This document shows positions 22,178 through 58,908 of a DNA stretch of 64,000 nt, in pieces. The DNA comes from Acidisoma sp. PAMC 29798. GTDB lineage: Bacteria; Pseudomonadota; Alphaproteobacteria; Acetobacterales; Acetobacteraceae. Both the position numbers and the translations under genes were made by a program. Each line of letters begins with the position of its first letter. The first letter of the stretch is position 1. Location of the stretch: contig NZ_CP126994.1 of assembly GCF_030252425.1 (NCBI RefSeq), positions 3,095,001-3,159,000 of the forward strand, read 5' to 3'. The notes beneath the pieces are model-generated. The model had not been told where the DNA came from. It saw only the letters and a program-made list of their open reading frames with translations, and made no database searches.

Positions 22178-22385
22178 GGGAGTGTCATCCCCTTAACGTC
22201 AGTCGGGCCCAAATAGAGGCGAGCCGGACCTCAGGCGCTGCTTCACACCCTAGGCGGACCTCCCATTTTGAGCCGCCGTAACCACTTCCCCCCTTCGCTC
22301 GTCGATGCAGTGGCTTTTTTAGACACCCGAGTTCTAAATCTTTATGTTGACCAACGCTTAGACTATTTTGAAGGATTTGACCCCA

Positions 22386-22772
22386 ATGACCACGGCCGAC
22401 GATGAACAGGTTTCTGGCACGGCCTTCGGCGCGATCACGATAGCAGCCCTCGACGCGGCTGATGATCTCGCCCTCGACGATTTGCCGTTTGGCGTCGTGG
22501 GTATGGACGCCGAAGGCGTCGTGAAGCGCTACAATCGCGTCGAGAGCCGGCTGGCCGGCCTGTCGCGCGACAATGTCCTAGGTGAAAGCTTTTTCCTCAC
22601 CACGGGCGTCTGCATGAACAACTATCTTGTCGCGCAGCGGTTTGAAGACGAGGCGGTGCTCGATGTCACTCTGGATTACGTGCTGACCTTCAGGATGCGG
22701 CCGACGCCTGTGAAGCTCAGGCTGCTGAAGCAGTTGGATGGTCCCTTTCACTACGTTCTCATCCAGCGCTGA
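22386..22772 (+). CDS. pyp: Photoactive yellow protein (PYP)-like blue-light sensor
   Basis: 128 residues from ATG 22386 (AAGGA 10 nt upstream; a TTG six codons earlier is unlikely). The whole protein aligns with Halorhodospira PYP at a constant offset of +7 through the chromophore region: Tyr49 = Tyr42, Glu53 = Glu46, and Cys76 = Cys69, which bonds p-coumaric acid. LGESFFLTTGVC matches IGKNFFKDVAPC, and FRMRPTPVK matches YQMTPTKVK near the end. Arg52 of PYP is Leu59 here. PYP is a soluble PAS-fold sensor whose chromophore isomerises in blue light. The next two genes encode a diguanylate cyclase and the ligase that activates the chromophore, which strongly supports a functional PYP. Confidence 0.9.
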   Translation: MTTADDEQVSGTAFGAITIAALDAADDLALDDLPFGVVGMDAEGVVKRYNRVESRLAGLSRDNVLGESFFLTTGVCMNNYLVAQRFEDEAVLDVTLDYVLTFRMRPTPVKLRLLKQLDGPFHYVLIQR

Positions 22773-22780
22773 CATCCTCC

Positions 22781-24124
22781 ATGGGTGACACGACCGACAT
22801 AGAGGCCGAATACGAGAGTCTTCTCGGCTTCCTCTATATCTGCCCGGTAGGGGTGTTGCGGGTTACCGCGACAGGCGAGGTGGAGATGATAAACCCCTAT
22901 GCCGCGCAGATGCTTGTCCCGCTCGCGCGGACACCGGTCCTGCGGAACCTGTTTGACGTTCTGGATGCCTATGCGCCGGAGCTGCGCGGAATGGTGGATC
23001 ATTTCACCGCGCCAAGCGGCTCCATTTGCCAAAATCACCGCATCACGGTCAGCCGGAGCGGCCCCGGTGCGCGCGTGATCGCCTGCACACTTCTGAAGAT
23101 CAACCCCGACGTTTTGATGGGCGTCCTCCAAGACATCACGGAGATGGTGGAACAGGAGCGTCAGCTCCGCCAGAACGAGGCGATGTTCGCGGCGCTTGTC
23201 GTCGGCGTGAAGGACTTCGCCCTGTTTTCCCTCGACCGGAGCGGCCTGATCGATAGCTGGAACATGTCTGGACGGCAGCAAACCGGATACGGCGTGGACG
23301 AGGTGATCGGCCACGACCTCCAGGTTCTCGCCGAACCGGATAGTGACAGCGCCGACGGTGTCGCAAACCAGATCGAGGAAGCGATTCGCGAAGGCTGGAG
23401 CCTGCGCGAGTGCTGGTGCCTGCGGCGCGATGGCAGCCGCTACTGGTCCCAGGTCATGGTTGCCTCCAATCAAGTGACGGATGTGGCCGCCGATGGCAGC
23501 GATGGCAGCACGACGACGGACCCCCGGGACATCACCGGGTTCGCCGTGGTGTTGCGTGACATCACGGAGCGCCATGTCTCCGGCGAGGAGTTGCGCCGGC
23601 TATTGACGACGGACCATCTGACAGGCGCCACCAACCGGGCGCGCTTCTTCGATCTCGCGGAGATCGAGATCGCGCGGCATCAGGCGAACCGTCGCCCGCT
23701 ATCGGCCGTCATGCTGGATGTCGACTACTTCAAGCAGGTCAACGATCGCTACGGTCATGCCGCCGGAGACGCGCTCCTCCAGCGCATGGTCACGCTCTGC
23801 CGCGTCGAGTTGCGCAGCCGGGACGTTCTGGCCCGCATGGGCGGCGAGGAATTCGCCATCCTTCTTCCGAATGCCACCCTGGATCAGGCCGTGGCCATCG
23901 CCGAGCGTATCAGGGCCAGCCTTGAGGCCGCCTTTACGGAGGGCTCGCCCACCTTCGACGACAGCGCCCCCGTGCCGATCACCGGCATTACGGTGAGCCT
24001 TGGCTGCGCCGAATTGAACCCGTCGGTAACGGGGGTCGATGCGCTGCTCCATGCGGCGGACACCGCTCTCTATGACGCCAAGCGTGGTGGGCGGAACCAG
24101 GTTCAGGTCGCACCACCGGGATGA
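22781..24124 (+). CDS. PAS-PAS-GGDEF diguanylate cyclase
   Basis: 447 residues. PAS-like domain 1 spans about 10-125 (GVLRVTATGEVEMINPYAAQ, then LQDITE), PAS domain 2 about 130-265 (TGYGVDEVIGHDL, then VLRDITERHV), and the GGDEF domain 275-440. The active site GGEEF is at 354-358 with metal-binding Asp in LDVDYFKQVNDRYGH, and the inhibitory I-site RSRD (345-348) lies exactly five residues upstream, so product feedback is expected. It makes c-di-GMP from GTP. No transmembrane segment is present. The start lies 8 nt after the pyp stop and the end overlaps the ligase gene by ATGA, so it is part of the PYP operon and the obvious output candidate. Confidence 0.93.
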   Translation: MGDTTDIEAEYESLLGFLYICPVGVLRVTATGEVEMINPYAAQMLVPLARTPVLRNLFDVLDAYAPELRGMVDHFTAPSGSICQNHRITVSRSGPGARVIACTLLKINPDVLMGVLQDITEMVEQERQLRQNEAMFAALVVGVKDFALFSLDRSGLIDSWNMSGRQQTGYGVDEVIGHDLQVLAEPDSDSADGVANQIEEAIREGWSLRECWCLRRDGSRYWSQVMVASNQVTDVAADGSDGSTTTDPRDITGFAVVLRDITERHVSGEELRRLLTTDHLTGATNRARFFDLAEIEIARHQANRRPLSAVMLDVDYFKQVNDRYGHAAGDALLQRMVTLCRVELRSRDVLARMGGEEFAILLPNATLDQAVAIAERIRASLEAAFTEGSPTFDDSAPVPITGITVSLGCAELNPSVTGVDALLHAADTALYDAKRGGRNQVQVAPPG

Positions 24125-25338
24125 CGCCATTGGCCGTCGATGCACGGCATTGGTGGCGCGCGTCCGGTGCGCTGGAGCGCTATCTGACCGATCTGGTAGC
24201 GGTCGAGGTGCGGATTCTGCGGCCGGGCGGTCCCTGGCCGCCCCACATCGATCCACATCAGGTCAGGACGACAACACTGGGCCCGGACGGTCTTGGTCTG
24301 GACTCCCTCGAATGCATCGCGGTGGCTGCCGCCCTGTCGGAGGCGTTGCACCTGCACCGTGGTGGCCTTGCCGACACGCTGCTCACCGCGCCCCTATTGG
24401 GCGCCTGGGTGGACGCTGCTGCGGCGGCGCTCGACAGGTTCAGCGACCTCATGACGGTTCGCTCCTCGGGAAGCACCGGTCGATCGCGCAGTCATGTTCA
24501 CAAGACGGACGCCTTGGCGATGGAAGTCGGCCTTTGGGCTGAGATGCTGCCCGGCCGGCGCCGTATTCGCACGGCCGTCGCCTGTCATCACATTTACGGC
24601 TTTCTGTTCACCCTGATGCTGCCTGCCGCGATGGCGCTTCCGGTGGAGGATGCGCGCTCGTTCTCACCAGGCGCGGTCGCCGCGACAATGCGGCCTGGGG
24701 ATGTGATCATCGGCCATCCGGTGTTCTGGGACTCCCTGCTCCGTGCCGCACCATCGGGCTGGCCGCCCGACGTAATAGGCGTCACATCCGGCGCGCCTTG
24801 CGCCGCGGCGATATTTTCCGGCGTGAGGGCGGCGGGCCTTCTGCGTCTGATCGACGTCTATGGCAGCAGCGAGACGGCGGGCATCGGCTGGCGCGACGAA
24901 CCCGCTGCCTACCAGCTTCTCCCCTTGTGGGAGAGACGCCAGGACGGGGTACAAGCCGCAAGTGGCGGGCCCGCGGCTGCGCTGCCTGACAGGCTGGACT
25001 GGGACGGCGGGCAGCGTTTCCGGATCGGGGCCCGGAACGACGGGGCGGTGATGGTCGGCGGTATAAACGTCGACCTGGGTCGGGTTCGCGCCGTGCTGCG
25101 TGAGCATCCAGACGTGGCTGACGCCGTGGTCAGGCTGATGCGGCCGTCAGAAGGCGCGCGGCTGAAGGCGTTCTTGAAGCCGCTGGAGGACAGCAGCGTG
25201 AATGTAGAGGCGCTGCGCCTTTCGGTTTTAGATTTTGCCGAAGCGCGGCTCTCGGTGCCCGAGCGCCCGAGAGCCTATCGCTTTGGACGCGATCTTCCTC
25301 AAAGCGAAACGGGCAAGCCGACAGACTGGGATGTCTGA
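24121..25338 (+). CDS. pcl: p-Coumarate:CoA ligase of the PYP-activation type
   Basis: 405 residues, matching the short PYP-linked ligases (about 390-400 residues) and well below plant 4CL (about 540). The adenylation loop is RSSGSTGRSRSHVHKT, the ATP motif is VYGSSETAGIG, and the C-terminal catalytic Lys lies in LPQSETGKPTDW. Such enzymes adenylate p-coumarate and make p-coumaroyl-CoA, from which the chromophore is transferred to the PYP cysteine. Its overlap with the cyclase gene and place two genes behind pyp reproduce the pyp-pcl pairing known from Rhodobacter. A tyrosine ammonia-lyase, needed to make p-coumarate from tyrosine, is not in the window. Confidence 0.9.
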   Translation: MTPLAVDARHWWRASGALERYLTDLVAVEVRILRPGGPWPPHIDPHQVRTTTLGPDGLGLDSLECIAVAAALSEALHLHRGGLADTLLTAPLLGAWVDAAAAALDRFSDLMTVRSSGSTGRSRSHVHKTDALAMEVGLWAEMLPGRRRIRTAVACHHIYGFLFTLMLPAAMALPVEDARSFSPGAVAATMRPGDVIIGHPVFWDSLLRAAPSGWPPDVIGVTSGAPCAAAIFSGVRAAGLLRLIDVYGSSETAGIGWRDEPAAYQLLPLWERRQDGVQAASGGPAAALPDRLDWDGGQRFRIGARNDGAVMVGGINVDLGRVRAVLREHPDVADAVVRLMRPSEGARLKAFLKPLEDSSVNVEALRLSVLDFAEARLSVPERPRAYRFGRDLPQSETGKPTDWDV

Positions 25339-35338: not shown

Positions 35339-35783
35339 TGATCACATCGACCCGCCCGCTCAGCCAATCCACGCCGACCAGGATGCGCCGCCCCGGCATG
35401 CCGAGCACGACAGCGCCGCCGGTGGCGCTGCCGTCCGGCGCAAAACTGAACAGAGCGCGGCGGGGCGCGGTGCCGTCGGCCATCTGTGCCGCGAGCGGGA
35501 GCCAGGCGGGAAGCGCCGGCCGCGCGACACCGTCCATCGTCAGGCGATGCGAGGGCAGGTCAAGCATGACCAGCACGGCGCGGTCATTTGCGATGGCGCG
35601 GCTGCGGCCGAGGCGAAAGGTCTGCGCCACCTCACTCGCCGCCGCCCGCGCCTCCATGCCGGGGCTGCGCGATGGTCCGCGTGCCAGCAGCAAGGCGCCC
35701 GTGAGGCCCATGATGACGATCACGACCAAAAGCTCGATCAAGGTGAAGCCCGCCTCGGTTGACCTCTCATTGCGCGAGATCAT
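35328..35783 (-). CDS. gspH: Type II secretion minor pseudopilin GspH
   Basis: 151 residues. The N-terminus NERSTEAG|FTLIELLVVIVIMG is a prepilin signal with Glu at +5. The body contains ASEVAQTFRLGRSRAIANDR, the GspH/FimT helix signature. GspH links the tip to the GspG shaft. It overlaps gspF by 17 nt. Confidence 0.88.
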   Translation of the reverse strand: MISRNERSTEAGFTLIELLVVIVIMGLTGALLLARGPSRSPGMEARAAASEVAQTFRLGRSRAIANDRAVLVMLDLPSHRLTMDGVARPALPAWLPLAAQMADGTAPRRALFSFAPDGSATGGAVVLGMPGRRILVGVDWLSGRVDVINAH

Positions 35784-36984
35784 TGAGACCCAGCATGGCT
35801 TGCATCAGCGAGCCGACGATCAGGGCGATCACGCCGCCCATGCCGATGGTGATGGCAGGGGTGAGCAGCGACACCATGCGCTGCACCGCCAGACTCGTCT
35901 TTTCCTCATGGATATCAGCGGCGCGCAAGGCCATCGGGCCGAGTTGCGCCGTCTCCTCCCCCAATTGCAGCAGATGGATGGTCCGCTGCGGGAAAAGCCC
36001 AGATTCTCCGAGTGGCCGCGCGAGCCCGGCACCGCCGCGCGCGCCGATGGTCGCCGTATCGAGCGCGCGCACACCGGCGGCATTGCCCAAAACCTCGCGC
36101 ACGATGTCGAGCGCGGTGATCAGCGGCATGCCATTGATGAGCAGGGTGCCGAGCGTGCGCGTGAAGCGCGCGGCCATAATCTCCCGCGCCAATCCACCGA
36201 TCACCGGCAGGCGCAAGCGCATCCGATCGAAGGTAAAGCGCGGCCCCGGTTGACGCAGCAATCGGTTGGCGCCGAGCACCAGAAGGGCGAGCGCGCCAAG
36301 GCCCGGCAAGCCCCAATGGCCGAGCAGGCTGCCAGCATCGATCATCAAACGCGTCGATGTCGGCAAGGACGCGCCATTCTCCGCGAACAGGGGCACGAAT
36401 TGGGGCAGCACATCCGTCAGCAGCAGTACGATGGAGCCGACTGCCGCGAGCATCAGCACAGCGGGATAGATCAAAGCCGAGGTCACCGTCGATGCCAAAG
36501 CGCGCTCCCGCTCCAGCAGCGTCGCAAGCCGTTCCAAAGTCGGCGCCAGAGCGCCACCCGCCTCCCCCGCGCGCACCAGACCGACGTAAAGGCGCGAGAA
36601 GGTGGAAGGATGTTTGGACAAGGCTACGGCGAAGGCGCTGCCATCCCGCACGGCATCGCGCAGGCTGTTGAGCAGACGCGCGGAGCGGGCATTCGGCGCC
36701 GTCTCGACCAGAAAGCGCAGCGCGCGATCCAGATCCTGTCCCGCCCCGAGCATGACGGCGAGTTCGCGCGTCATGTCGGACACTTCCTGGGCACGCAGAC
36801 CATTGCGGCGGAAGGCACCGATGTCGATGCCGCTGAGGCGTCGCCTGCCATCCGTTTCGACCCGCATCAGGATGCTGCCCTGGCGGCGCAGACGCTCCAC
36901 CAGCGCCGCTTCGTCTGGCGCGTCCAGCACGCCCTGGCTGAGCTTACCGCCGCTGCCGATGGCGACGTATCGGAAGGTCGGCAT
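35767..36984 (-). CDS. gspF: Type II secretion inner-membrane platform protein GspF
   Basis: 405 residues with two homologous cytoplasmic four-helix domains and three transmembrane segments (ALIYPAVLMLAAVGSIVLLL is the first). The start MPTFRYVAIGSGGKLSQGVL and the repeat LREVL/LGQVLRE-like elements are typical. GspF sits beneath the pseudopilus and couples to the ATPase GspE. Its start codon overlaps the gspE stop by one base. Confidence 0.93.
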   Translation of the reverse strand: MPTFRYVAIGSGGKLSQGVLDAPDEAALVERLRRQGSILMRVETDGRRRLSGIDIGAFRRNGLRAQEVSDMTRELAVMLGAGQDLDRALRFLVETAPNARSARLLNSLRDAVRDGSAFAVALSKHPSTFSRLYVGLVRAGEAGGALAPTLERLATLLERERALASTVTSALIYPAVLMLAAVGSIVLLLTDVLPQFVPLFAENGASLPTSTRLMIDAGSLLGHWGLPGLGALALLVLGANRLLRQPGPRFTFDRMRLRLPVIGGLAREIMAARFTRTLGTLLINGMPLITALDIVREVLGNAAGVRALDTATIGARGGAGLARPLGESGLFPQRTIHLLQLGEETAQLGPMALRAADIHEEKTSLAVQRMVSLLTPAITIGMGGVIALIVGSLMQAMLGLNDLAQ

Positions 36985-38681
36985 CAGGCATCCGCCCGAA
37001 TGCTGCGCATGACTTCCTCGATCGTCGTTGTCCCATCCAGGGCGGCATCGAGCCCCGCATCGAACATGGTCTGCATGCCGGCCGCGACGGCCGCGCGCTC
37101 GACCTCGCTATGGTCGGCGCGGGCGAAGATCAATCGTTCGACCGCCTCGTCCGGCACCAGGAACTCGCAAATGGCGAGCCGGCCGCGATAGCCGGTGTTG
37201 CGGCATTTCTCGCAGCCGACCGGATGCCACAGCGTGACGGTGTTTTGGCCTCGCCGGTCGAGGCCGAAGCGACGCACAAGTTCGGGCGGTGCCTCGGCGG
37301 CGCGGCGGCATTCGGGGCAGAGCCGCCGCACCAGGCGTTGCGCCAGCACCCCGCGCAGCACCGCTGTCATCAGGTAATCCTCCAACCCCATGTCGCGCAG
37401 GCGGGTGATGGTGGCGGCGGCGGAATTGGTATGCAGCGTCGACAGCACGAGATGCCCGGTCAACGCCGCCTGCACGGCGATCTGCGCCGTCTCGATATCG
37501 CGGATTTCGCCGACCATGATGACATCCGGATCCTGCCGCAGGATCGACCGCAGCAGCGAGGCGAAGTTGAGCCCGATTTGCGGACGCACTTGAATTTGGT
37601 TGATGCCACCGAGCTGAAACTCGATCGGATCTTCGATGGTGACGACTTTCCGGCTGACGGAGTTCAGACCGAGCAGACCGGTGTAGAGCGTGGTCGTCTT
37701 GCCGCTGCCCGTGGGGCCCGTGACCAGCACGATGCCATTGGGCAGATTGAGCGCCTCCGTGAACTGCCGCGCGATGGCGGGCGGCAGGCCAAGACGCGCA
37801 TAATCGAAGGCGACGGCGCTGCGGTCGAGCACGCGCAGCACGACGCTCTCCCCATACAGAGACGGCACGGTGGAGACGCGAAAATCCACATCCTGGCCGC
37901 GCACCGCCAGCCGGATGCGTCCATCCTGCGGCAGGCGGCGTTCGGCGATATCGAGATGCGCCATGATCTTGATGCGTGAGGTGATGGCCGCTGTCATTTG
38001 CGACGATGGGCTGTCGATTTCATGCAGCACGCCATCGAAGCGATAGCGCACACGCAGCCGGTCCTCGAAAGGCTCGATATGAATGTCGCTCGCCTGCGTC
38101 TCGACCGCACGCCAGATCAGTTGATTGACGAGGCGAATAACCGGTGCGTCACTCGCGAGATCGCGCAGCCGCTCGGTATCTTCCTCCAAGGGCGCGGCAT
38201 TTGCGTCTGCATCCTCCGTCTCCTCTTTCTGATCGGGATAGAGCCGCTCGAAGGCGGCTTCCAACTCGATCGGGACGGCGATTTCCAAGCGTATGCTTTG
38301 GCCAGTGGCGGCCGCCACGGCCTCAGGCGTGAAGGCATCGAGCGGATCGGCAACCGCGAGGACCAACGTGTCCCCATCCTGCCCGATCGGCATCACGCGC
38401 GCCGCGCGCAAGAACGGCACCGACAGACGCTCGGGCCATAGCGCCTCGGCCGGATAGCCGCCTACCGTCGTCATCGGCAGATCCAGGAGCCGCGCATAAG
38501 CGCCCGCGAGGCTACGCTCCGTCACCAATCCGAGTTGACTGAGCACCCGATCAAGCCGCTGGCCGTTATCCTCCGCGACGCGGCGCCCACGCTCCACCGC
38601 CTTCGCGTCGCAATGGCCTTCACTCACCAGAAGGTCGATCAGCGCCTCCAGCGGCGTCACCTCTTGTCTCAAAACTGTCAT
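36984..38681 (-). CDS. gspE: Type II secretion ATPase GspE
   Basis: 565 residues. Walker A GPTGSGKTT is at 322-330, with the Asp box (VTIEDPIEF) and His box (LVLSTLHTNSAAATITRL) behind it. The zinc-finger four-Cys set is CPEC and CEKC in the C2 domain. The N-terminal domain (1-150) should contact GspL. It powers pseudopilus growth. The ATG at 38681 overlaps the lytic transglycosylase stop by 4 nt, so the two are coupled. Confidence 0.95.
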   Translation of the reverse strand: MTVLRQEVTPLEALIDLLVSEGHCDAKAVERGRRVAEDNGQRLDRVLSQLGLVTERSLAGAYARLLDLPMTTVGGYPAEALWPERLSVPFLRAARVMPIGQDGDTLVLAVADPLDAFTPEAVAAATGQSIRLEIAVPIELEAAFERLYPDQKEETEDADANAAPLEEDTERLRDLASDAPVIRLVNQLIWRAVETQASDIHIEPFEDRLRVRYRFDGVLHEIDSPSSQMTAAITSRIKIMAHLDIAERRLPQDGRIRLAVRGQDVDFRVSTVPSLYGESVVLRVLDRSAVAFDYARLGLPPAIARQFTEALNLPNGIVLVTGPTGSGKTTTLYTGLLGLNSVSRKVVTIEDPIEFQLGGINQIQVRPQIGLNFASLLRSILRQDPDVIMVGEIRDIETAQIAVQAALTGHLVLSTLHTNSAAATITRLRDMGLEDYLMTAVLRGVLAQRLVRRLCPECRRAAEAPPELVRRFGLDRRGQNTVTLWHPVGCEKCRNTGYRGRLAICEFLVPDEAVERLIFARADHSEVERAAVAAGMQTMFDAGLDAALDGTTTIEEVMRSIRADA

Positions 38682-39094
38682 GAGCTGGGCTCGGCATTTT
38701 CGAACATCAGGGTGGCTGCGCGAAGCACCTGGTTCTGATAGTCTCGATTGAGGACGGCGGTGTGGGAGTGGTAATCGCCGACCGCGCGCAGCAGATCACC
38801 GCCCGTCTCATTTAGATAGGTTCGCATGATGGCGCCGGCGGCCGCGATGTTGAAACATGGCACATTCGTCAGACGATCGCGCACGATGTCCTGCGATAGA
38901 TGGGTATAGGCTTGAAGAGCGGGGAGCCAGCTTGTGTTGATCTGCATCACGCCGAGATCGGCGGTGCCATTCGTATCGGCGCGGACCATGCCGGGGCTGC
39001 CGCCTTCCACCGCTTGGATGGATGGCAGCACGCGCGGCGGCAGCGCATAAAGATGCGCGACAAGAGCCATGCAAGCGAGATAGGGAACGGCCAT
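38678..39094 (-). CDS. Lytic transglycosylase-like protein
   Basis: 138 residues from ATG 39094 (GAGGA six nt upstream). After a hydrophobic signal-like start (ACMALVAHLYALPPRVLP), the SLT core shows AVEGGSPGMVRADTNGTADL with Glu probably catalytic, GVMQINTSWLP, and NIAAAGAIMRTYLNE. Such enzymes cleave peptidoglycan between MurNAc and GlcNAc. Here the gene is first in the block that continues into gspE and gspF, so it may open the wall for the secretion machine. It is divergent from gspG. Confidence 0.83.
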   Translation of the reverse strand: MAVPYLACMALVAHLYALPPRVLPSIQAVEGGSPGMVRADTNGTADLGVMQINTSWLPALQAYTHLSQDIVRDRLTNVPCFNIAAAGAIMRTYLNETGGDLLRAVGDYHSHTAVLNRDYQNQVLRAATLMFENAEPSS

Positions 39095-39139
39095 CAACTT
39101 TCCTCGTCACGCACATCTATGAGAATACAAGAGGCGACA

Positions 39140-39595
39140 ATGAGCAACGACACTCCGACGACATCGACCGATCAGCCTACCGATCGCGAAAGCGGCTTTA
39201 CGCTTCTGGAACTTTTGGTGGTCATCGTGATCATCGGGCTTCTCGTGGGCTTTGTGGCACCCGCGGCGCTGCGCCAATTGGGCGGCGCACGCGTCTCCGT
39301 CGCAAAGCAGTCGATCACGCGCATGGGTGCGATCCTGGACATGTACAAGCTCGATGTCGGCAGCTATCCGGCAACCTCCGACGGATTGCACGCGCTGATC
39401 GAAAAGCCGTCCGACGCCACGAATTGGAACGGCCCCTATCTCAAGAGCGACACCGGTGCGGTCGATCCTTGGAACCACCCTTATGTCTATCGCTTCCCCT
39501 CCGACCGCAGCGGACATGATTATGATCTCTGCTCGCGCGGACCGAACGGCACGGCGTCGGATACTTCCGACAGCGGCATGATCTGCAATCCGTAA
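39140..39595 (+). CDS. gspG: Type II secretion major pseudopilin GspG (inverted)
   Basis: 151 residues from ATG 39140 (AGAGG 7 nt upstream). The prepilin site is ESG|FTLLELLVVIVIIGLLVG with Glu at +5, followed by the GspG-specific core SITRMGAILDMYKLDVGSYP, AWNGPYLKSD-like NWNGPYLKSD and the C-terminal calcium-loop region. GspG builds the pseudopilus shaft. Unlike all other gsp genes here it is on the plus strand, between the divergent transglycosylase gene and the convergent gspK. Confidence 0.93.
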   Translation: MSNDTPTTSTDQPTDRESGFTLLELLVVIVIIGLLVGFVAPAALRQLGGARVSVAKQSITRMGAILDMYKLDVGSYPATSDGLHALIEKPSDATNWNGPYLKSDTGAVDPWNHPYVYRFPSDRSGHDYDLCSRGPNGTASDTSDSGMICNP

Positions 39596-39636
39596 CGACT
39601 GTATGAGACGGAGTTCGACGCCCGACCATGACACCG

Positions 39637-40437
39637 TCACAGCGACTGCCAATTCAAGATACGAAACGGCCGCCCGCGCGGATCGGGCACCAGGCGCACA
39701 GTCGCGCGACGCGTGAAGCGCGCACCGCCTCGCCCGACAGCCGTCGCCGTAATCGTCACCGTCGGGTCGCCACCCTCGTCTATGCCGGCGGCCGCTGCGC
39801 CACCCGACTGTTGCGCGACCAAGGCCAAGGCGCGCGCCACAAAAGGATCGGCGGCGGCAAGCGCCGGTGTGTCATTCTCTTGATAGATCGATATATGCGG
39901 TAGAAGGCAGGCCCGCAGCGCGGGTGTTATGCCAATGACAAGACCGATCTCATCGCTCGTCTCGAAGGGCGCCCCAGGCGGCGCATAGCCTAATCCCGCC
40001 GCGCGATACGCGACTGAGGGATCAACGCCGCTCGCCGGCGCGCGCCAGGCGAGAATCGCCTGTGTGATGGCCGCAGATTGCGGAGCGGATGCGCCGCACA
40101 GCGTCAGCATGGCGCCGAGCAGAGGCTCGTCTGCCGCATTCGGGTTGATCTTGCCGGCGACATTCTCGACCGTCACATCGGCGACGCCCGCGGATAGCAC
40201 CAAATGATGGCGCCCTTGCAAGGGCCAATGCTGCGGTGGCGGCTCCAAAAGATGAAACATTGTGTCCTGGACCGCGCCATCCGCGACCGCTTCGGCCACC
40301 GCCGAAGCGCGCAGATTGCTCGCGAGCTGCGCCTCGCTGCGGCCGGCCGATAGCACTTGCGTCAGGATCAAGGATAGCAGAACGAGCGACCAGAGGACGA
40401 TGAGCAGAGCGAACCCCGCCTGCCTCCGGTCAGGCAT
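39637..40437 (-). CDS. gspK: Type II secretion minor pseudopilin GspK
   Basis: 266 residues from ATG 40437. The prepilin-like start is RQAG|FALLIVLWSLVLLSLIL; position +5 is Ile instead of Glu, as is normal for GspK. The body has KINPNAADEPLLGAMLTLCG, the GspK signature ('INVNTA'). GspK caps the pseudopilus tip. The ATG overlaps the gspD stop in TAATG. Confidence 0.9.
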   Translation of the reverse strand: MPDRRQAGFALLIVLWSLVLLSLILTQVLSAGRSEAQLASNLRASAVAEAVADGAVQDTMFHLLEPPPQHWPLQGRHHLVLSAGVADVTVENVAGKINPNAADEPLLGAMLTLCGASAPQSAAITQAILAWRAPASGVDPSVAYRAAGLGYAPPGAPFETSDEIGLVIGITPALRACLLPHISIYQENDTPALAAADPFVARALALVAQQSGGAAAAGIDEGGDPTVTITATAVGRGGARFTRRATVRLVPDPRGRPFRILNWQSL

Positions 40438-42770
40438 TACTGCGACCCACCCCATTGCCGGATGCGGGCGTCCGGATCGTCCGATCCGCTCGGCCTCAGA
40501 CCTTGCAGATATTGCGGTACGGCGGCGGCCGAGGGCAATTGCTCACGCAAATCCTGGGTCAAGGCCAGCGCGTCTCGCTGGTCATGCACCACATGGGGCG
40601 TGATCAGCACCAAAAGCTCGTTGCGCGTGCGCGAATTGCTCTGCTGCCCAAAGAGCGATCCGATAATGGGCACATCTTTCAGGAACGGCACGCCCTGATT
40701 GCTTTTGGTGACGCTGTCCTGAATCAACCCAGCGAGACCGATGGTCTGGCCATCCTGCACCACGACGCGGGACTGCACGTCGCGCTGCGTGAAGGTCGGC
40801 GAAGAGATTCCGCCGGTGCTGATCGTCGTGCTCGCCGCCGTGTTCACGTTGCTGACCTCTTGCGAGATGTCGAGCGTGACCAGCCCTTCACTGCTGACGC
40901 GCGGCGTGACTTCCAGAATAACGCCGGTCTGCTCATAGGCGACCGAGTTGATGACGTCCGAGGTGCTGGTCACTGTGCTCTGCGCCTGCTGCGTCAGATA
41001 CGGCACGAGGTCACCCACTTCCAGTCGCGCGGGCTGATTGTCCAGCACCATCAGCTCGGGCGATGACAGCACATGCACGGTACTCACGGCCTGGAGAAGA
41101 CTGAGTGCGACCTGGGATGCATTGCTGCCGGCCAAGAAGTAGCCGGCAAAGCTGTTGGTGGCATTGAAGACAGACGACAGCGTGCCATTCAAGCCGCCCG
41201 ACTTGAAGAAGAATTGCGTGCCATATTGCAGCGCATCGTTGAGCTCGACTTCGGCGATGACAGCGTCGATCCGGACCTGCAAGGGGATGATGTCGATCTT
41301 GCGCAGCGTTGCCATGACTGTGTCGAGTTCCTGCTGTGTGCCGTAGATCAGCAGGGAGTTGTTGACGGAATCAGGGATGATCCGCATCGTATTCGCGTTG
41401 GAGGCGCCGGAACCGGAACTGCCGCCGCTCGCGTCCAGTCCGCCGAGCAAGGGATTAGCGGAACTCGCCGCAGCTCCGGACGATGTCGTGCTGCCCAAAC
41501 CGCCGCCGGTGGTGCCCAGGCCACCGAGGCTTCCGCCGCCGATTCCGCCGACACCATCACTGCCGGCACCGCCCTGCCCGATGCTGGTGATGCCGCCGCT
41601 GCTGGACCCGGAAGCGCTGCCCGAACCCGACTTGAGCTGTGCGGTCGGCGTGGGTGTCGCCGTCACATGGTCAGGCGTGAAGGCCTGTTGGAGGACATAG
41701 GCGACGTCGTTGCTGTGGCCGTTTTGCAGATAGTAGACCGTCCAGCTGCGCACCGTGTTCTGCTGACGCTGCTGCATCATTGCAAAGACTCGTTGCGCTT
41801 CTTGAATGGTACGGGGTTCGGTTGCGGCGACCAGAACGGCGTTGATCCGCTCCATGGGAATGACGCGCGGCGCACCGCCCCGCGTACTCGTCGTCTGGCT
41901 CCCGGATGAGGCGCTGCCACCCAAAGCCTGCTGCAAGGCCGTCGCGACATCCTTGGCGTTGCCCTCGTCCACCGGGAACAATGCGAGAGATTGCCCGGCC
42001 AAACTGTCGACATCGAAAGCCGCAATCAGTCCGACCAAGGCATCCCGCGATTGCGGATCACCCGAAACGACGATCGCGTTGCTGCCACTATCGGCCGCCA
42101 GTTTCGTGCCCTGAGTGACAAAGGGTTGCAGCACGCGGGCCAATTCTTCGGCCGAGGCATAGTGCAGCGGAATAACCTGGCCGCCGCCATCGCCGGGTGC
42201 TGAGGCGAGGCCCGGCTGATTGGCGCCCCCTGCCGGCACGATGCGATACAGTGGCCCGTTATTGATCAGCGTCGCGCCCGCCTGGCTCAGCAAGACCTGC
42301 AAGGTCGGAAGGAGCTGGTCGTTGGAAATCGGCACCGAGGTGTGAAGTGTCGCAGTGCCATGTACAGCAGGATCGATCGTGTAATTGACATGCAGAATGC
42401 CACCGAGAATCTGGGCCACCACATCCCGGATATCGGTATCGGCAAAGTTCAACGATGCGCCGCCGTCGGTGACGGCGCCACTCGTGCCAGATGCCGCGGT
42501 CTGGTTGCTGGCAGCCGCCACGCCCGAGCCGTAGCTCACCGATGTGCGACCGAGCGAGGCGATGCTGCCGACAGAACCATTCTCGCGAACGGAGGCCTCG
42601 CCCGTGCCAGGTGGCACTGGTGTCAAAGCCTGCGGCGCAGGCGGAAGAGACGGTTTCGTGCAACTCGCGAGCAAAAGCAGGGCAAGGCCGCAGAAGAGCC
42701 GGTGTACAGACCGGTCGCGTTGTCGATTGCGCGTCACGTCAATCCCATCTCTCGGGCATCCATTGATCAA
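40437..42770 (-). CDS. gspD: Type II secretion secretin GspD
   Basis: 777 residues. A lipobox (LLAS|C at Cys37) suggests a lipidated outer-membrane anchor, unusual but not unknown. The N0-N3 domains extend to about 470, interrupted by a long Gly/Ser-rich loop, and the secretin domain ends with VPFLKDVPIIGSLFGQQSNS, then LLVLITPHVV. GspD forms the outer-membrane pore. Its start overlaps the gspM stop by 4 nt (ATGA). Confidence 0.95.
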   Translation of the reverse strand: MINGCPRDGIDVTRNRQRDRSVHRLFCGLALLLLASCTKPSLPPAPQALTPVPPGTGEASVRENGSVGSIASLGRTSVSYGSGVAAASNQTAASGTSGAVTDGGASLNFADTDIRDVVAQILGGILHVNYTIDPAVHGTATLHTSVPISNDQLLPTLQVLLSQAGATLINNGPLYRIVPAGGANQPGLASAPGDGGGQVIPLHYASAEELARVLQPFVTQGTKLAADSGSNAIVVSGDPQSRDALVGLIAAFDVDSLAGQSLALFPVDEGNAKDVATALQQALGGSASSGSQTTSTRGGAPRVIPMERINAVLVAATEPRTIQEAQRVFAMMQQRQQNTVRSWTVYYLQNGHSNDVAYVLQQAFTPDHVTATPTPTAQLKSGSGSASGSSSGGITSIGQGGAGSDGVGGIGGGSLGGLGTTGGGLGSTTSSGAAASSANPLLGGLDASGGSSGSGASNANTMRIIPDSVNNSLLIYGTQQELDTVMATLRKIDIIPLQVRIDAVIAEVELNDALQYGTQFFFKSGGLNGTLSSVFNATNSFAGYFLAGSNASQVALSLLQAVSTVHVLSSPELMVLDNQPARLEVGDLVPYLTQQAQSTVTSTSDVINSVAYEQTGVILEVTPRVSSEGLVTLDISQEVSNVNTAASTTISTGGISSPTFTQRDVQSRVVVQDGQTIGLAGLIQDSVTKSNQGVPFLKDVPIIGSLFGQQSNSRTRNELLVLITPHVVHDQRDALALTQDLREQLPSAAAVPQYLQGLRPSGSDDPDARIRQWGGSQ

Positions 42771-56133: not shown

Positions 56134-58758
56134 CTAGGCGCTGAGACGCTTGATCGCCTCCGCGAGCGGCTGCTCGGCGTCAAAATACTCGTCCCAGGCC
56201 TTGGTCTTGGCCAGCAGGTCGGGCACGCTGCGGATGGTGTAGTCCAGCGGGTCCAGACCGTCCTTCACTTGGCCCCAGGTCAGCGGCATCGACACCGGGG
56301 CGCCGGCCCGGCCGCGCGGCGACAACGGCGCCACGGCCGTCGCCATCCGGTCGTTACGCAGGTAGTCCAGAAAAATGCGCCCGGTGCGCAGCTTCTTGGC
56401 CATGTTGATGACGTAGCGATCGGGCGCGGCTTCGGCCATGACCTGGCAAATTGCCCGCGCAAAGGCCTTCGTCTCGGGCCAGCTCGGGTTGCCCTGCTTC
56501 TTGCGCGCCAAGGGCGTCACGACATGCAACCCCTTGCCGCCCGTCGTCTTGCAGAAACTGACGAGGCCGATCTGGGCCAGAAGGTCACGCACTTCCTTCG
56601 CGGCCGCGATGACGGTCGGGAAGTCCACGTCAGGTCCGGGATCAAGATCGAAGACCAGGCGGCCCGGGACCTCGTAATGGAAGGGATCGTTGTTCCAGGG
56701 ATGCAGCTCCAGCGCGCCGGTCTGCGCGACCGCCGCCAGACCCTCGACCCGATCGATTTCGATATACGGCTTCCGGTCGCCGCTCACGGTGACCAGTTCC
56801 AGCAGATTGGAGGAGCCTGGCATCGCGTGGCGCTGGAAGAAGGTCTCCCCGCCAAACCCATCGGGCGCGCGGATGATCGAACACGGCCGCCCCTTGAGGT
56901 GCCGGATCAACCACGGGCCGACGGCTTCGTAATAGCGGGCAAGGTCGAGCTTGGTGACCGGCGTGCCGTCGCCGCCGGCCTCCGGCCACAGGACCTTGTC
57001 GGGCCGGGAGATCGTCACGCCCATGACGGCGGCGCTGCCCTCGCTCTTTGGAGCGGGCGCCTTTGCGGCCTTTTTGGCCGGTGGTGCGGCGAGTTCGGTC
57101 GTTGCCGCCGGAGCCGGCTCTTCGGCCTCGACCTCAGCGGCGGGCTTGTCGTCCCGCAGACCCTTGAAGGCCGCTTGGCGAACCATGCCCGAGCCAGTCC
57201 AGCCCGCGAACTCAATCTCCGCCACCAATTCCGGCCGAACCCAATGGATGTTGGGGGCCGATTTTGGCGCGCCTGGCCCGGTGAAGGGGCTCGTGTCGCT
57301 GCCGACCGCCTTCAGGCGCTTGATGAGACTGTCGAGCTTGGCGCCGCCGAAGCCGGTGCCGACGCGCCCGACATGGATGAAGTGCGACCCCCGATGCACA
57401 CCCACGATCAGGGATCGGAACCGGCCACCCGTATCGGCCCAGGCGCCGATCACCACTTCATGGCCGGCGCGGCACTTCGCTTTGGTCCAGCTTTCGCTCC
57501 GCCCTGAGTGATACGGCGCATCCGTCCGCTTGGAGACGATGCCTTCCAGCGACAGCTTGCAGGCCGATAGCAGCACGGCATCGCCGCCCGTCTCGAAATG
57601 ATCGACATAGCGGAGCAGCGGGCCGCCCTGATTCGGAAGCGCCACCATAACGCTTTGCAACCGGCTTTTGCGTTCGGTCAGGGGCAGCGGGCGCAGATCC
57701 TCCCCCGCCGCGAACAGAAGGTCGAAGACGAAGAAGACCAGGTTCGCCGTATCGCCCTCCGACAGCGCCGCCTGCAAGGCCGCGAAATCCGGCGCGCCAT
57801 TGCTGTCGAGGGCCACAATCTCCCCATCGATGATCGTGTCGGGCAGGTCTTTGCAGGCGGCCGCGACATGCGAAAACTTCGCCGTCCAGTCCAACCCCTT
57901 CCGCGTGCGCAGCACGGTTTCGCCGCCGGCGGTGCGTGCCTGAACGCGGTAGCCATCGAACTTGATCTCATGCACCCAGCCCGGCCCATTCTCAGGCCGA
58001 TCAACGGACTGGCAGAGCTGTGGGTCGATGAAGTCTGGCATAGCTGCCGGCTTCGCCTTGGGCGTCTTTTTCCGCGCGGCACGCAAATCGGGCGCCAGCC
58101 CGACATTGGAATCCCAAACCGCGTCCTTGGTGACGCCAGCGGGCGCATCCGGCACCATGAACGGTTTGGGGGCTTTGCCCGTCCCGGCCTCGATCTCGGC
58201 CATCGCCCGACCGGAGGCGACCGAGCGGTCTTCGGCCAGCAACGCATCCGCGTCGCCCTCATGGGCGTGCTCATCCCGATGCTTGATCAACAGCCAATTG
58301 ACCCGCTTGCCGCTCCAGTTCTTCATCCGCACCAGCACCCAACTGCCATGCAGATGCTCGCCCTCCAGCGTGAACTTGAGGTCGCCGGAGTCGAGCCCGG
58401 CCTCGGCCGTCATGCCCTGGGGCGCCCAGTAGCCGCGGTCCCAAAGCTGGACCGTGCCGCCACCATACTGGCCCTTGGGAATTGTGCCCTCGAAGTCCCC
58501 GTAGTCGAGCGGATGGTCCTCAACCTCGACCGCCAGGCGCTTATCATGGGGGTCGAGGGACGGGCCTTTGGCCACCGCCCAGGACTTGAAGACCCCATCC
58601 AACTCTAGGCGCAGGTCGTAGTGGAGCCGCGTCGCGGCATGCTTCTGCACCACGAAGCGCAGGCGCGACCCTTGCCGAAGCGGCATATCGCCGCTCGGCT
58701 CGTTTGTCAGCGTGAAATCCCGCTTGGCTTGATAGGCTGAGAGCTTACGTGTCGCCAC
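56134..58758 (-). CDS. ligD: ATP-dependent DNA ligase D (LigD)
   Basis: 874 residues from GTG 58758, which has GGGAGG at five nt; ATG 58761 is only two nt from it and less likely. Domain order is 3'-phosphoesterase (about 10-180, [20 protein letters not shown]), ligase (about 245-560, catalytic Lys in [12 protein letters not shown], then [13 protein letters not shown]) and polymerase/primase (about 600-874, [24 protein letters not shown]). An acidic-Ala linker precedes the polymerase part. LigD repairs double-strand breaks with Ku by end joining; no Ku gene is in the window. It is divergent from the substrate-binding protein gene. Confidence 0.95.
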
Positions 58759-58908
58759 CATGACCTCCCGGACGCTCATGTCATGTGGTGGCAACCTGAC
58801 CCGCAACAACCGACTCTTCCGCACAACGGCACGTCAATTGCTAGTGCAATGATGAACCAGTGGGTCGGCCCCGCGCCGGCCTTGGGCACAAGCAGACAGG
58901 AGCGTTGC

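Follow-up and report, generated by a model that had tools for sequence, protein, structure and literature searches.

A predicted clade C photoactive yellow protein of Acidisoma sp. PAMC 29798 is encoded beside a putative diguanylate cyclase with an N-terminal domain genetically paired with such receptors

The window analyzed here, a stretch of 64,000 nucleotides from Acidisoma sp. PAMC 29798, contains three genes that lie head to tail on the + strand between positions 22386 and 25338 and encode a photoactive yellow protein (PYP), a GGEEF cyclase, and a putative p-coumarate:CoA ligase (pCL). The pyp and cyclase genes are separated by 8 nt, and the cyclase and ligase genes share a 4-nt ATGA overlap; open reading frames, strands, gap, and overlap were all as the initial annotation had described them. 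Published PYP-GGDEF operons are characterized by a single-domain pyp immediately 5' of a same-strand GGDEF gene, and the window has this arrangement. The features of the locus are as follows.

22370..22375, + strand: Shine-Dalgarno-like GAAGGA, 10 nt 5' of the pyp ATG (sequence inspection)
22386..22772, + strand: pyp, 128 aa, clade C type (TIGR02373, phmmer against PDB, alignment, tree)
22530-22532, 22542-22544, and 22611-22613, + strand: codons of pyp Tyr49, Glu53, and Cys76, equivalent to Tyr42, Glu46, and Cys69 of H. halophila PYP
22781..24124, + strand: putative diguanylate cyclase gene, 447 aa, with partner, PAS, and GGDEF domains (open reading frame, Pfam)
22808..23179, + strand: PYP-partner domain, cyclase residues 10-133, divergent and PAS-like, proposed docking/relay domain (alignment, profile scans)
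23225..23569, + strand: PAS domain, cyclase residues 149-263 (PAS_9, E 1.2e-6)
23594..24106, + strand: GGDEF domain (Pfam GGDEF, E 5e-38), with an RSRD I-site at 23813-23824 and GGEEF at 23840-23854
24121..25338, + strand: putative pCL gene, 405 aa (TIGR02372, E 3e-77), found in the same place in L024, L025, L113, L117, L118, and L122

The gene 3' of pCL is YidB-like and lies on the opposite strand, and no EAL gene follows pCL in the window. The order pyp, cyclase, pCL was found in 7 of 45 pairs with the window counted, which rules out chance gene order; the six other loci are L024 (from the same genus), L025, Methylobacterium sp. FF17, Sphingomonas insulae, and two Rhizobium plasmids. Among the 45 fetched stretches, many of which end at contig ends, 18 contain pCL and 27 an EAL domain. 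Elsewhere in the window are type II secretion genes (T2SSF, T2SSE ATPase, and secretin; 35767-42770) and a gene for a LigD-type DNA repair ligase-polymerase (56134-58824).

The window PYP matches TIGR02373 with an E value of 5.5e-21, its 74.9 bits falling short of the curated cut-off (143.05 bits). Since a profile tried in PMC9664959 covers only 20% of PYP homologues, we did not take this cut-off as defining a PYP. When PDB sequences were searched with phmmer, all 33 that matched, engineered forms included, bore the names PYP or PPR; they comprised the Ppr-PYP (1mzu, 2.7e-15) as well as H. halophila PYP and its engineered forms. The conserved Tyr, Glu, and chromophore Cys singled out by the initial annotation do align with Tyr42, Glu46, and Cys69, and retention of this triad rules out a decayed PYP. 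Across a clade C alignment of 45 rows, including the window, Cys69 and Glu46 are present in every row and Tyr42 in 42 (Phe in the other 3), so that relatives without the Cys, which the annotation had regarded as counterevidence to its reading, did not turn up.

Other positions of the window PYP have changed: Thr50 is replaced by Ala and Arg52 by Leu, and T73-G74-V75 stands in the pocket in place of the usual V66-A67-P68. In clade C PYPs, Phe92, Phe96, and Trp119 are no longer conserved, while Met100 is retained (PMC9664959). The window PYP bears these marks, with L96, L100, and Y123 at the lost aromatic positions and M104 at that of Met100. In the PYP tree it falls into one 48-row group (support, 99/97) with clade A type rows outside; the nearest row outside the group, L040, is a long branch. 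By these sequence criteria, we classify the window PYP as a clade C PYP. A TIGR02373 scan found no second PYP in the window's genome, although at E 0.001 the scan also matches 1 of 14 control genomes, under its cut-off. A scan of genome contigs with the PYP itself returned two short relatives. The protein is a chain of 128 aa, whereas Ppr and Ppd photoreceptors are fusions of PYP with a phytochrome and an output. Public plasmid records label clade C PYPs as "phosphonate transporter" (hits H18-H20, H22, and H23).

Inspection of the cyclase revealed that both its GGEEF active site and its RxxD I-site (RSRD) are intact, and the protein is by its GG(D/E)EF and RxxD motifs a predicted diguanylate cyclase. 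Pfam recognizes the GGDEF domain and a single PAS domain, at residues 149-263. The ~124 residues at positions 10-133, which we call the partner domain, are matched by the N termini of genes behind clade C PYPs. No Pfam or NCBIfam family was recognized in it, the window's copy matching PAS_8 with an E value of 0.04, below cut-off. The PAS-PAS-GGDEF architecture initially proposed thus holds for the second PAS, the GGDEF domain, and its GGEEF motif, while the first "PAS" goes unrecognized.

When 16 partner-domain members were compared with the models, 3 touched PAS_8 (best E, 0.034), 1 touched PAS_4 (E, 0.0012), and 2 touched a DivJ histidine kinase model (best E, 0.0013). The best match of the partner-domain profile among PDB sequences was the PAS domain of WalK (E, 0.07), and its comparison with the PYP profile gave a probability of 26%. 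Given these scattered, weak matches to PAS and DivJ models and the match to the WalK PAS domain, the partner domain probably represents a divergent PAS domain. The cyclase N terminus is not simply an ordinary PAS domain, since the profile scores at least 99 bits for members versus 27 to 38 bits for others in a phylum sample. A single-sequence fold of the domain (pLDDT, 46.9) was too poor for use.

We searched 299 genomes of the window's family for PYPs and found 51 places in 29 genomes, of which 18 were called clade C (at least 43% identity and at least 51 bits); a 46-residue match in G270:C345 (46%, 28 bits) was counted among the other 33. The neighborhood search suggested by the initial annotation located a partner-domain gene directly behind 17 of the 18 clade C PYPs, compared with 0 of the 33 other places; neighborhoods were inspected at 25 of the 51 places, and for the other 26 absence was read from a genome-wide profile scan scoring up to 14 candidates per genome. 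The exception is a tandem pair in G143, in which the first PYP is followed by the second PYP and then by the partner. The profile scan of the same 299 genomes returned 20 partner domains in 15 genomes, all above 100 bits. The 13 genomes with a clade C PYP are all among these 15 and account for all but two, G156 and G235, which have no detectable PYP. Per genome, the partner domain was therefore present in 13/13 with a clade C PYP versus 2/286 without one (P = 6e-21).

The pairing was also seen in other samples. Among 398 genomes of the phylum sample, the partner domain exceeded 100 bits only in G000 and G591, with seven other genomes at 27 to 38 bits. Clade C PYPs were likewise confined to G000 and G591, three more genomes having weaker PYP matches in chains of ~900 residues, so that the per-genome comparison was 2/2 versus 0/396 (P = 1e-5). 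Of 195 genomes of f71, the family of G591, the partner domain occurs in 38 and a clade C PYP in 37, and every one of these 37 has both (37/37 with versus 1/158 without a clade C PYP; P = 4e-39). By coordinates, the partner domain lies 29 to 87 nt behind the PYP match for 40 of 41 clade C PYPs in f71, the exception being located at a contig end, whereas 0 of 11 PYPs of other types have a partner domain behind them. The 74 partner domains of f71 comprise 40 directly behind a PYP, 27 in second position in that run (including one in L102 that shares a chain with the first), and 7 elsewhere.

Eleven records of a plasmid collection encode the partner domain, each with a PYP directly before it; 9 of the 11 were retrieved, Caballeronia SBC2 with two loci, and the other two were judged by coordinates. 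Conversely, 13 records have a PYP, and 11 of the 12 with a clade C PYP have the partner domain; the two records lacking it are Comamonadaceae OTU4NAUVB1 (clade C, L120) and Niveispirillum (clade A). Taken together, these results demonstrate a tight genetic pairing of the clade C PYP with the partner domain. Partner-domain genes do occur in G760 as well as in G156 and G235, all genomes without a detectable PYP, and loci L060, L061, and L107 encode partner-domain EAL or GGDEF proteins in such genomes.

What follows the partner domain varies. Among 60 partner domains, distributed over 59 chains of the fetched loci, the remainder of the chain was GGDEF in 36, GGDEF-EAL in 15, EAL in 3, and GGDEF plus histidine kinase in 2, with no output recognized by the models used in 4. 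The last four consist of two with a PAS domain and a C-terminal stretch, L031, and L112. Truncation may explain L031 (a stand-alone partner domain of 137 aa), and the L112 gene is interrupted by a stop, so that we counted neither as a stand-alone form. On the partner-domain tree, the output label changes at least nine times, or 7 times without the two changes that come from possibly broken genes. None of the 59 chains combines the partner domain with a PYP match above 20 bits. Among individual proteins, a partner domain-GGDEF-HisKA-HATPase protein is encoded behind tandem PYPs (L033:6425-8893), a 930-residue chain has two partner domains ahead of GGDEF-EAL (L102:5124-7916), and partner domain-PAS proteins have a ~125-residue C-terminal stretch that contains a GKGDSF motif (L025:588-1700 and L029:4833-5957).

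A common run in f71 consists of pyp, a partner-PAS-GGDEF gene, and a partner-GGDEF-EAL gene, the two partners having the partner domain and a GGDEF domain in common. All 8 second-position partners inspected, of the 27 in f71, are GGDEF-EAL proteins. The EALVR, DDFGTG, KID, and EGIE motifs are present in 9/9 second partners inspected, including L094 (elsewhere in its genome), and their GGDEF motif reads GGDEF in 6/9 and GSDEF in 3/9. Because the EAL motifs are kept and the GGDEF motif reads in this way, the second partners may be bifunctional. At L063, L097-L100, L103, L106, and L116, one PYP is followed by two partner-domain genes, the cyclase first and the GGDEF-EAL protein second; one receptor possibly serves opposing enzymes at these loci.

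The reading that we prefer, to which we assign a probability of roughly 0.6, is that the operon makes a soluble blue-light receptor together with its effector and that the PYP signals in trans through the partner domain; we infer the contact, the chromophore loading, the control by light, and the direction of the effect. The pCL would activate p-coumarate for loading onto Cys76 of the PYP, and light would isomerize the chromophore. The changed PYP would then act in trans on the PAS-like partner domain at the N terminus of the cyclase, which would relay the change via its neighboring PAS to GGDEF, thereby altering c-di-GMP. Relatives would couple this PYP-partner domain pair to a cyclase, a GGDEF-EAL or EAL protein, or a histidine kinase. 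This reading is supported by the retained PYP triad, the intact GGEEF and RxxD motifs, the pCL in the operon, the tie between the partner domain and the clade C PYP, the changes of output behind that domain, and the second-position partners of f71. The clade C PYP of L120, which lacks a partner domain, counts against it, as do the partner-domain genes in genomes without a detectable PYP, the unusual pocket of the window PYP, and the lack of a recognizable tyrosine ammonia-lyase in the genome (see below). More tentatively, and at slightly less than even odds, we suggest a docking domain dedicated to clade C PYPs, namely, a PAS-like module of ~124 residues at effector N termini that has moved among cyclases, GGDEF-EAL proteins, EAL proteins, and a histidine kinase and would let one diffusible blue-light receptor feed several outputs.

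An unlikely but serious alternative is that PYP, cyclase, and pCL are co-transcribed and have spread as a unit without contact between the proteins, the PYP acting on another target or the cyclase answering its own ligand. Distances between PYPs correlate with those between partner domains (r = 0.63 for 42 pairs, reduced from 45; 0 of 2,000 permutations were as high). When near-copies were dropped from the 39 pairs that have a single partner domain plus a GGDEF domain, leaving 36, however, the correlation of PYP with the partner domain (r = 0.61) was no stronger than that with the GGDEF domain (r = 0.64; the difference had a bootstrap interval of -0.23 to 0.26). The correlation therefore does not single out the partner domain as the contact, which we infer, and it is compatible with co-inheritance alone, as are the partner-domain proteins in genomes without a detectable PYP and the several plasmid loci, which favor transfer as a cassette. 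Yet the partner domain stays beside the PYP while the outputs change, which argues against a plain cassette, in which the N-terminal domain would not be the sole part retained. The pairing is also specific to the clade C PYP, even in the 11 f71 genomes that have a second PYP type.

The supply of chromophore bears on whether the PYP would respond to light. TIGR02372, a 4-coumarate:CoA ligase model, is the closest model of the ligase and matches residues 51-399 with 260 bits, a score below the cut-off of 334.7; the p-coumarate:CoA ligase of the initial annotation is a putative assignment. We recognized no tyrosine ammonia-lyase (TAL) in the window's genome, which has one histidine ammonia-lyase, over its model cut-off, and one distant homologue. 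Both lyase genes lie away from the pyp operon, which differs in this from a classic pyp-pcl-tal operon, and p-coumarate may come from outside. The distant homologue (L126:1339-3477) has GEGD where the other lyase has ASGD; because of this replacement, it may be inactive as an ammonia-lyase. On an Indioceanicola profundi plasmid (L119:1115-6272), canonical pyp, pcl, an aromatic ammonia-lyase gene, clade C pyp, and its cyclase gene form one same-strand run, and on Caballeronia plasmids (L115, L123, and L124), the clade C pyp run faces a canonical pyp-pCL pair encoded on the other strand. The 113 predicted pyp operons of PMC12826048 include 29 with GGDEF, 22 with EAL, 42 with pCL, and 7 with TAL, so that TAL is absent from most. 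That the PYP goes without chromophore in this host, as a constitutive PAS partner or a sensor of something besides light, would fit the unrecognized TAL and the unusual T73-G74-V75 pocket but is improbable given the pCL within the operon, the retained Cys, Tyr, and Glu, the general rarity of TAL in pyp operons, and the Indioceanicola run.

A two-protein light-to-c-di-GMP switch, as proposed in the initial annotation, remains the most likely reading of these genes, with Cys69 kept in all 45 clade C rows, whereas the novelty claimed for it does not hold. PYP was held there to be known only from fusions or beside tal and pcl, yet free-standing PYPs next to GGDEF genes have been published (PMC9664959 and PMC12826048). 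Since the window PYP has the clade C changes and falls into the matching tree group, the operon belongs to this published kind. It resembles the clade C PYPs that often adjoin GGDEF or EAL genes (PMC9664959), having a single-domain PYP beside a c-di-GMP gene, the same residue losses, and a retained Met100, and it resembles the 113-operon set (PMC12826048) in its downstream GGDEF gene and its pCL. The functional precedent cited in both papers is Idiomarina loihiensis, which also has a free PYP and an adjacent GGDEF protein and in which blue light lowers biofilm formation (van der Horst 2009, via PMC12826048), although its PYP belongs to clade A (PMC9664959). Ppr and Ppd photoreceptors similarly couple PYP input to kinase or GGDEF/EAL output, but in one polypeptide with a phytochrome, whereas the window's receptor and cyclase are separate proteins (PMC9664959 and PMC12826048).

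Single-domain PYPs are the commonest sort (83%; PMC12826048), and their signal output is called an open question in both PMC12826048 and PMC9664959. In the portions of the two papers covered here, neighbors are named only by their GGDEF or EAL domains (PMC9664959) or genes and domains are counted (PMC12826048), and the shared N-terminal partner domain is mentioned neither there nor in titles and abstract openings of related literature. A defined partner domain that accompanies the clade C PYP and is otherwise nearly absent from the searched genomes turns the signaling question into a two-protein binding test. If the docking domain is real, it would be a general partner for the single-domain PYPs of clade C, which in f71 would often serve both a cyclase and a GGDEF-EAL protein encoded in one run, and the system would amount to a compact, naturally occurring light switch of two parts whose outputs can be exchanged.
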